A DNA stretch of 64,000 nt, from NCBI RefSeq assembly GCF_000703085.1, contig NZ_JNLL01000001.1, positions 1,240,001-1,304,000 of the forward strand. Reading direction: 5' to 3'. Source of the stretch: Persephonella sp. KM09-Lau-8 (GTDB taxonomy: Bacteria > Aquificota > Aquificia > Aquificales > Hydrogenothermaceae). Below, in pieces: positions 26,249 through 29,723 of the stretch (position 1 is the stretch's first letter; each line of letters begins with the position of its first letter). The notes under the pieces are model-generated. The model was not told the origin of the DNA, did no database searches, and saw nothing but the letters and a program-made list of their open reading frames with translations. The position numbers were made by a program, and so were the translations under genes.

Positions 26249-28195
26249 TCAATCTCCTAATCTGGCATTATTTATTCTAAGGGCATTTAGAACAACACTT
26301 ACAGAACTAAAAGACATTGCAACTCCTGCAATAACAGGCTTAAGAAGTATTCCTGCAGCAGGATATAAAATCCCTGCTGCAACAGGTATTCCAATAATGT
26401 TATAAATAAATGCCCAGAACAGATTTTGTTTTATAACATTCATACTAAATGAAGAAAGATTTATAGCTTTTAAAACTAAATTTAGCTCATTCTTTAAAAG
26501 CAGAATATCCCCTGTTTCTTTTGTTATATCAGTAGCCTGGACAACTGCTATTCCAACGTTTGAAGATGCCATGGCAGGAGCATCATTTATTCCGTCCCCG
26601 ATAAACATCACCTTTTCACCTTTTTGTTGCAGTTCCTTCACAATCCTGTATTTATCCTCAGGTTTTAGCTGGGCAAAGCATTCATCAAAACCAGCCTCGG
26701 CACATATTTTCTCTGCTACTTCTTTTTTATCTCCTGTCAGTAAAACCGTTTTTATCCCTCTTTCTTTTAATTTATTCAAAACAACCTTTGCCTCCGGTTT
26801 GAGGTTATCACTAAGATAAAAAGCAGCAACAAGTTTATCGTCAACAGCAATTAAAAGCTCTGTTTTTTCAGAGTTTTCTTCAATAACAAATCCGTGTTCC
26901 TCTAATAAAGTTTTATTTCCTGCTACAACTCTTTTTCCTTCAACTATAGCAATAATTCCTTTTCCAGCCATTGATTTAAAATTTTCAGGTTTTGCTTCAT
27001 ATTCAGGGATTTTTTTCAAAACAGCTTTTGCAACAGGATGGTTAGAGTTTTTCAAAGCAGGATAAGCATATTTTAAAAGCTGTTTATCAAATATTTTTTC
27101 TTCTATAACAGAGAGCTTTCCTTCTGTTATTGTTCCGGTTTTGTCAAAAACAGCAACGGTAATATCCTTAATCCCTTCAATAATTTCTGGATTTTTAATC
27201 AGTATTTTTTCTTTTGCTCCTTTACTAACTGCAACAACAATTGCAATCGGCGTGGCAATTCCAAGGGCACATGGACAGGCAATTATTAAAACGGAAACAG
27301 AGGACAAAAATGCTATATCAGGTTTATCCAGCAAATACCATACATCAAAAGTCAGAATAGAAATAATAAGAATAGCAGGGACAAAAACTGCAACAACTTT
27401 GTCAGCAAGTCTTCCAACAGGTGGTTTTTTTTCTTGTGCCTGTGATACCAGTTTTGCCAGTTGGGATATAAATGCATCTTTTCCTGTTTTTGTGGCTTTG
27501 ATTAAGATATAACCATCAACAAGAAGGCTTCCGCCTAAGACAGTATCACCTGCCTTTTTCAAAACAGGCAGGCTTTCTCCTGTAAGAATTGACTGGTCAA
27601 TCTCTCCGGAGCCCTCAATAACTACGCCATCAACAGGAATTCTTTCACCTGCCTTGACCACAACAATATCACCAACTACTATACTATCTGCAGGCACCTC
27701 TACCTCTTTCCCATCCACGATTATTAATGCTTTCTGGGGTTTTAGCTTGAGTAGTTTTCTCAAAAATCCTGTTGCCTTATTTCTGGAACGGCTTTCCAGA
27801 TATCGGCCAAGTAAGACAAATGTGATAATAGCAGCTGCACCACCAAAATAGGTAGACCTCATATTCTCAGGAAAAAGGAAAGGAAAAAATATAACAAAAA
27901 CTGAATAAAAATAAGCAGCAGAAGTCCCTATAACGACAAGCAGGTTCATATCAGCAATTCTGTTTTTCAGACCACCTATTGCAGACCTGTAAAACTCCCA
28001 ACCTGCCCCGAATTGAACAATAGAGGCAAATATCAGAGAAAGTATATTTTTCAGGTTTAAAAATTCATTAGACTGGATTAGAGGCTTCTCCAGAAAAGGT
28101 AGTTTTAAAAATTCAAATAAAAATACCAGGAGTGTAAAGATAAGAGCTATAAAAAATCTAATTTTAAGGCTTTTTTCTTCCTCTAACTTTTTTTT
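26249..28195 (-). CDS. copA: Copper P1B-type ATPase CopA, body reached by a -1 frame change
   Basis: A Cu(I)-exporting ATPase. Motifs are TGES (ILTGESLPV), the CPC membrane site (IACPCALGIATP), DKTGT phosphorylation site, HP (NSNHPVAKA), and GDGINDAPAM, ending in helices with FIYN and MSFSS. The first ATG, at 27949 (MNLLVVIG), would drop the first two helices, but the frame stays open upstream to 28195 and codes for FEFLKLPFLEK and FGAGWEFYRSAIGGLKNRIAD, standard CopA helices MA/MB and linker. There is no ATG, GTG or TTG in that stretch. The upstream HMA gene runs into it in the other frame across nine A residues, so expression of the full pump appears to need a -1 shift. A real disruptive mutation is the alternative. 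Confidence 0.85.
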   Translation of the reverse strand, partial: KKKLEEEKSLKIRFFIALIFTLLVFLFEFLKLPFLEKPLIQSNEFLNLKNILSLIFASIVQFGAGWEFYRSAIGGLKNRIADMNLLVVIGTSAAYFYSVFVIFFPFLFPENMRSTYFGGAAAIITFVLLGRYLESRSRNKATGFLRKLLKLKPQKALIIVDGKEVEVPADSIVVGDIVVVKAGERIPVDGVVIEGSGEIDQSILTGESLPVLKKAGDTVLGGSLLVDGYILIKATKTGKDAFISQLAKLVSQAQEKKPPVGRLADKVVAVFVPAILIISILTFDVWYLLDKPDIAFLSSVSVLIIACPCALGIATPIAIVVAVSKGAKEKILIKNPEIIEGIKDITVAVFDKTGTITEGKLSVIEEKIFDKQLLKYAYPALKNSNHPVAKAVLKKIPEYEAKPENFKSMAGKGIIAIVEGKRVVAGNKTLLEEHGFVIEENSEKTELLIAVDDKLVAAFYLSDNLKPEAKVVLNKLKERGIKTVLLTGDKKEVAEKICAEAGFDECFAQLKPEDKYRIVKELQQKGEKVMFIGDGINDAPAMASSNVGIAVVQATDITKETGDILLLKNELNLVLKAINLSSFSMNVIKQNLFWAFIYNIIGIPVAAGILYPAAGILLKPVIAGVAMSFSSVSVVLNALRINNARLGD

Positions 28196-28530
28196 TCAAA
28201 ATTTTCTAAATCTTCTGAGGCATCATAACCGAGCTCTTTTATCTTGGCTATTATCTGTTCTTTGGTTATTTTTGCAGGGTCGTATTCAAAAACACCCTTT
28301 GAGGTGGCAAGATTTACTGAGGCAGAAATTACTCCATCGGTGGCTTTTAAAGTTGCCTCTATGCCGGCAACACAACCGGCACAATGCATTCCTGATATGT
28401 TAAGTTCTACTGTTTCCGTTTTTCCTGTATTTTCTTTCTTTTTATTCTTATCATCTTTTCCACCGAAGAAAAACCAGCTTATACCACCTATCATTAACGC
28501 AGATACCGATAGAACAGCGAATTTATCCAA
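28183..28530 (-). CDS. Membrane-anchored HMA copper-binding protein (N-terminal part of copA)
   Basis: 115 aa in the zero frame. An N-terminal helix (VLSVSALMIGGISWFFF) and charged linker are followed by a complete heavy-metal-associated domain with GMHCAGCVAGIE (CxxC near residues 50-53) and KIKELGYDASEDL. Stop TAG lies immediately after the A9 run. TTG 28530 is 7 bases after AGGAGG. On its own it would be a CopZ-like, membrane-tethered copper chaperone; joined in frame it is the metal-binding N terminus of CopA. E. coli copA is known to make both a chaperone and a pump through -1 frameshifting, an established precedent. Confidence 0.88.
   Translation of the reverse strand: MDKFAVLSVSALMIGGISWFFFGGKDDKNKKKENTGKTETVELNISGMHCAGCVAGIEATLKATDGVISASVNLATSKGVFEYDPAKITKEQIIAKIKELGYDASEDLENFEKKS
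28188..28196 (-). other. A9 slippery run at the HMA/CopA frame junction
   Basis: The mRNA reads TTTTG-AAAAAAAAA-GTTAG. In the HMA frame the run leads to AGT TAG (stop at 28183). In the ATPase frame it reads AAA AAA AAG TTA GAG and stays open to 26249, while a TGA lies just upstream at 28196-28198. The two frames overlap only around this run. Adding one A (transcript slippage) or -1 ribosomal slippage joins them. Confidence 0.75.
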
Positions 28531-28646
28531 CTTTCTGCCTCCTGAATATGATACAGAATAATTTATTCCAAACTATGCGAAAAGTGAACTCTTTTATTAT
28601 AAAATGTTTAGGCCGAAAATATTAAAAAGCTCGGAGGTAAACCTAC

Positions 28647-29723
28647 CTGAAAGGATATAGAAGCTGGGCAGAAATCAGCAAAGACCGAGTTGAATATAAT
28701 CTAAAAACAATACATAACTATGTGAAAAAAGATATATTTGCTGTAGTAAAGGCAGATGCCTATGGGCATGGTGCAAAAAATATATCCAGAATTCTCCAGC
28801 AGTATCCATTCATAAAATATCTATGCGTTGCAACAGCAGAGGAAGGAAAAGAGCTAAGGCAGGCAGGCATAAAAAAAGATATTCTTGTTTTAGGTGGGAT
28901 TCTTCCTGATGAAATCAAATGCTTTAAAGATTATGACCTTGTCCCTGTAATCTCCGATTTTGACCAGCTTAAAATAGTCCAGAAACATAACCTATCCCGT
29001 ATCCATATAAAATTTGATACAGGAATGCATAGACTTGGGTTCTTACCGGAAGAAATAAGTAAAGTATTAAATAACCTGAACAGTTTAAGTGTAGAAGGAA
29101 TTTTATCCCATTTTCCCTCTGCAGATATTGACCCTGAACTTACACAAAAACAAATAATTCAGTTTCAAAAAATAGTTGAAACGGTAAAAAAAGTCGGAAT
29201 AGACCCCCAATATATACATCTGCAAAACAGTGCAGGACTTATGTATAAGTGTGATTATTGCAATGCCGTAAGGATAGGCATTTCCATATATGGAGAGAAA
29301 CCTGCCCCTGATTTTCCAATTCCTGTTAAAACAGTTATGTCTGTCAAATCTAAGGTAATTGCTATTAAAAATCTGAAAAAAGGTGAAACAGTGTCCTATG
29401 CAGGCACTTTCACAGCTCCAAAAGACATGAAAATAGCAATTGTTTCCTTTGGATATGCAGATGGTCTGCCACGGGATTTATCCAATAAAGGATACTTCCT
29501 GATTAATCATCAAAAAGCAAATATAGTAGGTAATGTAACGATGGATATGACTATAGTTGATGTCTCCCATATACCAGATATAAAAATCGGAGACACAGTA
29601 ACAGTTGTTGGCAAAGACAACGGAAATGAAATATATTTTGAGGATATAGCAAGGTTGTGCGGCACAATACCTTATGAGATAATGTGCAGAATATCAAAAA
29701 GGGTTAAAAGGGTTGTTATCTAA
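28647..29723 (+). CDS. alr: Alanine racemase with apparent CTG start
   Basis: A PLP enzyme making D-alanine for peptidoglycan. VVKADAYGHGAKN holds the PLP Lys, and VSYAGTF, FGYADGLPR and NVTMDMTIVD are the other active-site boxes. A GTG at 28722 would remove the conserved N terminus GYRSWAEISKDRVEYNL, which is present in frame from 28653. Between the in-frame TAA (28638) and 28722 there is no ATG, GTG or TTG. CTG 28647 lies 9 bases after GGAGG (28633-28637), so CTG initiation is the simplest reading. The protein is then 358 aa, normal for Alr. Its stop overlaps the regulator start (TAATG). Confidence 0.9.
   Translation: MKGYRSWAEISKDRVEYNLKTIHNYVKKDIFAVVKADAYGHGAKNISRILQQYPFIKYLCVATAEEGKELRQAGIKKDILVLGGILPDEIKCFKDYDLVPVISDFDQLKIVQKHNLSRIHIKFDTGMHRLGFLPEEISKVLNNLNSLSVEGILSHFPSADIDPELTQKQIIQFQKIVETVKKVGIDPQYIHLQNSAGLMYKCDYCNAVRIGISIYGEKPAPDFPIPVKTVMSVKSKVIAIKNLKKGETVSYAGTFTAPKDMKIAIVSFGYADGLPRDLSNKGYFLINHQKANIVGNVTMDMTIVDVSHIPDIKIGDTVTVVGKDNGNEIYFEDIARLCGTIPYEIMCRISKRVKRVVI

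Follow-up and report, generated by a model that had tools for sequence, protein, structure and literature searches.

Organization of the copA locus

The window analyzed here, a stretch of 64,000 nucleotides from Persephonella sp. KM09-Lau-8, contains on its minus strand (28530-26249) a copA gene that is divided between two open reading frames, an HMA ORF and a copper P1B-ATPase ORF, the latter in the -1 frame. The zero-frame ORF (28183..28530, minus strand) starts at TTG, ends at TAG, and encodes a 115-aa protein with an N-terminal membrane anchor and an HMA copper-binding domain (PF00403, E=1.1e-19). Inspection of the sequence places a Shine-Dalgarno element, AGGAGG (28538..28543, minus strand), 7 nt 5' of the TTG, and a strong Shine-Dalgarno also precedes the HMA ORF start in several close relatives. 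The predicted anchor, FAVLSVSALMIGGISWFFF (28465..28521, minus strand), is a 19-aa hydrophobic segment with a mean Kyte-Doolittle hydropathy of 2.0 in 25 orthologues; it is followed by a lysine-rich flank, and a GGISWFFFG-type motif in this region is kept across the Hydrogenothermaceae. The HMA domain (28222..28404, minus strand) is the only PF00403 match in the genome, and its Cu(I) site GMHCAGC (CxxC; 28372..28392, minus strand) is invariant in 11 aligned orthologues.

The two frames meet at a run of nine A's (A9; 28188..28196, minus strand) in the context GAA AAA AAA AGT TAG. The ATPase frame is open from 28195 to 26249, and after a one-nucleotide shift (26249..28189, minus strand) it encodes a KLEEE linker, the MA and MB helices, the actuator domain, and the CPC and DKTGT motifs through to a TGA stop codon. 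Its first ATG, GTG or TTG is at 27949, 3' of MA/MB, and translation from a standard start codon could cover no more of this frame than the segment from there (26249..27949, minus strand); without a shift the pump would therefore lack its HMA domain as well as MA and MB. An internal start was considered and rejected, as no conserved start codon, either standard or ATT, ATC, ATA or CTG, is present 5' of MA/MB in 25 orthologues. The translation from 27949 scores 559 bits against TIGR01511 (copper-translocating ATPase; cut-off 397), and the CPCALG, DKTGT, YN and MSFSS motifs are present, as in a Cu(I) P1B-1 ATPase (CopA). Joining the two frames gives a protein of 760 aa that aligns over its full length with its relatives.

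The original prediction, made from the DNA alone, described an HMA frame and an ATPase frame, each intact and offset by -1 at the A9 run, a membrane helix in the zero-frame product, and the loss of MA/MB from an unshifted pump; all of this was recovered, including the ORFs and their coordinates.

Among the family copA copies, the zero frame ends one to three codons past the A run. The reading frame with two extra A's terminates after VRGRKKP, so the pump is reached by inserting one A (or four) but by no other small insertion. At the neighboring locus, conserved N-terminal codons of an alanine racemase appear to lie upstream (window 28640-28722) of the GTG at 28722 from which its plus-strand ORF is listed; this stretch lacks ATG, GTG and TTG codons, and a CTG start is possible.

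Conservation of the split in the Hydrogenothermaceae

We surveyed genomes of the same family (G000-G064; the named loci are from Persephonella, Sulfurihydrogenibium and Hydrogenothermus) and found 31 copA genes whose sequence extends to the junction; the species counts that follow are given without phylogenetic correction. The A9 split is present in 30 of the 31, in eight genera and including complete genomes, in the context GAAAAAAAAAG and always with a G on both sides. The metagenome-assembled genome (MAG) G008 is one of the 30, and its A9 junction is intact despite many breaks further downstream. The lone exception is MAG G061 (L132, G061:C196; L051), which has A8 and is likewise out of frame. 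Outside the Hydrogenothermaceae, the clear copA relatives are fused in a single frame, with a few loci too short or ambiguous to call, and the linker A runs are no longer than six in the nine fused genes inspected.

All 25 orthologues compared have the same junction codons, GAA AAA AAA AAG, although at the other invariant columns of the same proteins (6 Lys and 4 Glu) both codons are used in every column. AAG is the minority lysine codon, accounting for 18% of lysine codons in a 464-kb sample of this genome (2469/13406), and the G that terminates the run is therefore kept too. These patterns argue for selection on the A9 run itself, as judged from codon usage. Conservation of the run and of both frames within the Hydrogenothermaceae had been set in advance as a check on the original prediction, and it was borne out; the comparison of orthologous sequences confirms the copA split as a real, conserved recoding.

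Long A runs in coding sequence

Run lengths were examined in 464 kb of genome, of which 415 kb is coding sequence, using ORFs called mechanically with a minimum of 120 aa, and expected counts were obtained by shuffling codons with the protein sequences preserved. No run of nine or more A's was observed in the 415 kb of coding sequence in any of the three phases, against about 69 expected, and there were likewise no runs of nine or more T's, against about 13 expected. Runs of eight A's are reduced to 0.3-0.5 of expectation in each of the three codon phases. No phase shows a deficit of A7, with 162 observed against 171 expected in the A_AAA_AAA slip phase, and A_AAA_AAG is hardly reduced (71 observed, 79 expected). 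The 120-aa minimum under-samples genes that are themselves split at A9, a bias guarded against by a pattern search of the whole genome, which found only 21 A9/T9 sites. The avoidance is a length threshold that is independent of reading frame, and the slip-phase heptamers, being present at the expected count, are tolerated on their own in many genes. A length threshold of this sort, derived by the same kind of randomization, has been used to infer slippage-prone run lengths (PMC1088944). Replication slippage could also have helped to remove long runs.

Transcriptional or ribosomal slippage

The original prediction named two routes by which the frames could be joined, a -1 slip and the addition of one A to the transcript. 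Either would do so, with the same junction peptide, EKKKLEEE; on the sequence evidence, the insertion of one A by RNA polymerase fits the A9 copA genes better, with a probability of about 70%. Four considerations lead us to favor the polymerase: long A runs are avoided irrespective of frame with heptamers tolerated, folding energies show no conserved downstream RNA structure and no upstream Shine-Dalgarno-like element is conserved, the outer A's and flanking G are conserved, and further genes of these genomes are split in like manner at runs that stand in other codon phases. The junction itself, a conserved run of about nine A's where two ORFs overlap, and the avoidance of such runs in the sampled coding sequence of this genome are features expected of transcriptional realignment.

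Programmed -1 ribosomal frameshifting on A_AAA_AAA in an unaltered A9 message, as for E. coli copA and dnaX but at another slip site, is the strongest competitor, although we consider it unlikely. The heptamer is in frame in every A9 copA copy, and the E. coli copA gene is known to undergo ribosomal frameshifting (PMC9548414, PMC5009743). Against this, the same heptamer is common and not avoided in coding sequence, and conservation in copA covers more than the heptamer needs, taking in two outer A's and a flanking G. Folding energies gave no evidence for a conserved downstream RNA structure, with mean z about -0.8 to 0, in a search that covers structures other than pseudoknots. At 70 C, close to the temperature at which the Hydrogenothermaceae usually grow, the predictions leave the RNA downstream of the run with hardly any fold (mean MFE about -1 kcal/mol or weaker). 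An upstream Shine-Dalgarno-like element is present in a few species only and is not conserved. The family copA genes never use A_AAA_AAG, the efficient E. coli motif, and heptamers without a stimulator shift little in E. coli, with a motif/no-motif ratio of 2.1-10 over a background of about 0.06% (PMC4066793). Nor does the zero frame encode the full pump, as it would in a frameshift of the E. coli copA kind.

The direction of the shift also bears on the choice. Mixed directions among orthologues have been taken as a criterion of transcriptional slippage, and a single conserved direction as a sign of ribosomal frameshifting (PMC3711429). Almost all of the split genes in the family shift by -1, only the G061 copA with its A8 departing, and the mixture of directions is not seen here. 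This uniformity speaks for a ribosomal slip, but would arise equally from a polymerase whose slips mostly insert just one A.

Other genes with out-of-frame A runs

We scanned A9 sites in G000, G015 (C2, 1,930,284 bp) and G020 (1,838,442 bp), and wherever such a site lies between two coding frames, each 60 codons or longer, the offset is in the -1 direction. Apart from copA, three genes have conserved out-of-frame runs of A9 or A10, nearly all of them short of one A. In ylxR-L7Ae (G000:C1:1708883-1709385; L150, L242; L241-L265) a -1 split at TGT AAA AAA AAA is found in 20 loci, with an in-frame A10 in G001 only. A poly(A) polymerase/CCA-type nucleotidyltransferase gene (G000:C1:196267-197879; L141, L162; relatives L160-L189) has a -1 split with a run such as TTA AAA AAA AAG; the A9-type split is present in 19 loci, A10 restores a single frame in G005, G016, G030 and G020, and G031, G018 and G025 have a single frame without the run. 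The third, a pilus usher gene (G000:C1:1135724-1137372; L148, L271; L272-L279), requires one extra A in all nine loci; seven of them have A9 and the other two A10, and the runs occupy three codon phases.

Runs of this kind were also seen in single genes. A DNA polymerase B-like gene in G015 (L206, G015:C2:1474887-1474895) has a -1 split at A9, a sensor histidine kinase-like gene in G020 (L232, G020:C1:1526786-1526797) has one at A12, and an IS607-like resolvase/MerR-type gene on a small contig (L153, G000:C2:25224-25232) is split at A9.

Some of these genes raise the possibility that an ancestral A10 could lose an A at little cost, because RNA polymerase slips readily on A9, and that splits persist without any regulatory use. 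The nucleotidyltransferase gene is consistent with this, having A9 and a split in G009 and A10 in a single frame in its close relative G005, and having no such run left in G031, G018 and G025. In ylxR, the unslipped frame stops about 15 codons past the conserved RTC motif and its product is a short peptide only, which means that the splits are not in general explained by a useful short product. However, the nucleotidyltransferase gene toggles between split and single frame and copA never does: there are no single-frame copies among the 31, and the run is frozen at synonymous positions. The usher gene likewise needs one extra A in 9/9 copies even though the codon phase differs. We therefore regard a neutral split as an improbable account of copA. 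Phase variation, in which replication slippage would toggle the pump between on (A10) and off (A9), is less probable still; runs of this length are mutable and poly(A) tracts have been proposed to inactivate genes reversibly in other bacteria (PMC2831843), but an A10 copA occurs in none of the 31 genomes, complete ones included. Finally, homopolymers are error-prone and MAG G061 carries A8, but sequencing error or a strain-specific frameshift mutation, which the original prediction had kept as an alternative, is excluded by the conservation of the run and the frozen codon choice, with 30 of 31 genomes from many sources agreeing on A9.

Returning to slippage by RNA polymerase, a broader proposal, on which we are evenly divided, is that A9 is purged from Hydrogenothermaceae coding sequence yet kept out of frame in copA, ylxR-L7Ae, the poly(A) polymerase/CCA-type gene and the usher gene, that these proteins would be made from slipped transcripts only, and that the four would form a family-wide set whose output is governed by RNA polymerase slippage, with the copA split supplying a membrane-anchored copper donor as well.

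A model for copA expression

We propose that faithful A9 transcripts would be translated in the zero frame to give the 115-aa protein, about 12 kDa by its length, with a single membrane anchor, a lysine-rich flank and the HMA domain in the cytosol. In a fraction of transcripts RNA polymerase would slip on the A9 run and add one A, and ribosomes would translate these A10 messages without a break into the Cu(I) P1B-ATPase, giving the 760-aa pump, about 83 kDa by its length, with an anchored HMA domain of its own. Messages with A11 would end after VRGRKKP and yield HMA protein only. A single promoter and a single start site could in this way set the ratio of anchored HMA protein to pump. Here we infer both the slip agent, RNA polymerase, and the slip efficiency.

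The short product may supply the pump with copper or buffer the metal for it. Of the 32 family genomes that encode any HMA domain, 29 encode just one, and the domain in copA is the only one in this genome, so no separate CopZ is evident; the unslipped product is presumably the copper chaperone. Of the chaperone and pump in the original prediction, the analysis supports a pump for copper and a membrane-anchored HMA protein, whose chaperone activity is presumed. The charge difference across the anchor segment is small, and the predicted topology with the HMA domain in the cytosol accordingly rests mainly on the lysine cluster after the helix and on the need of the fusion for a cytosolic HMA domain.

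If this model is correct, there is a second, separate route from one copA gene to a copper-binding protein and a copper pump, with a logic that is the reverse of that in E. coli and a machine that is probably a different one, RNA polymerase. It would also mean that several non-mobile cellular genes of one bacterial family apparently depend on transcript slippage, and standard annotation may label such split genes broken.

Comparison with known systems

We found no prior report of an A9-split copA in the searchable literature, whose coverage is partial as many subscription papers lie outside it, and nothing relevant on Persephonella, frameshifting and copper; the main text of PMC3711429 mentions neither copper nor ATPases.

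In E. coli copA (Meydan et al. 2017; Drees et al. 2017), ribosomal frameshifting involves a slippery sequence, a pseudoknot and the nascent chain, and the zero frame encodes the pump while the shift gives a 70-aa chaperone, as described in PMC5009743, PMC7558416 and PMC9548414. The Hydrogenothermaceae gene is similar in that a single gene gives a copper P-type ATPase and a small HMA protein, with the shift just past the HMA domain. The roles are inverted, however, with the zero frame encoding the short protein and the shift giving the pump; the site here is A9, a stimulator is not seen, and the short protein is membrane-anchored. The E. coli model invoked by the original prediction thus stands for one gene with two products, whereas its ribosomal type is not the better model.

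Single HMA domains with GMxCxxC are also found in the CopZ/Atx1 metallochaperones. CopZ is a soluble protein of about 70 aa, whereas the short copA product carries an N-terminal membrane anchor, and it falls below the curated CopZ cut-offs (NF033794, 65 bits against a cut-off of 95).

In mechanism, the closer likeness is to Thermus thermophilus dnaX, in which RNA polymerase slips at nine A's with a frequency of about 50% (PMC1088944, PMC5009743). Both are cellular genes of thermophiles with exactly nine A's in the sense strand and two products per gene, but slippage shortens the dnaX product, whereas in the Hydrogenothermaceae copA it would be required for the longer one. The fusion of two overlapping ORFs into a longer protein by slippage has parallels in Shigella mxiE and in the A9 transposases of IS elements (PMC1088944). 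Those are plasmid or mobile-element genes, in contrast to the copA described here, a chromosomal metal exporter gene conserved throughout a family in which three more genes are alike. Most likely, then, the Hydrogenothermaceae copA combines a gene as in E. coli copA with a mechanism as in T. thermophilus dnaX.
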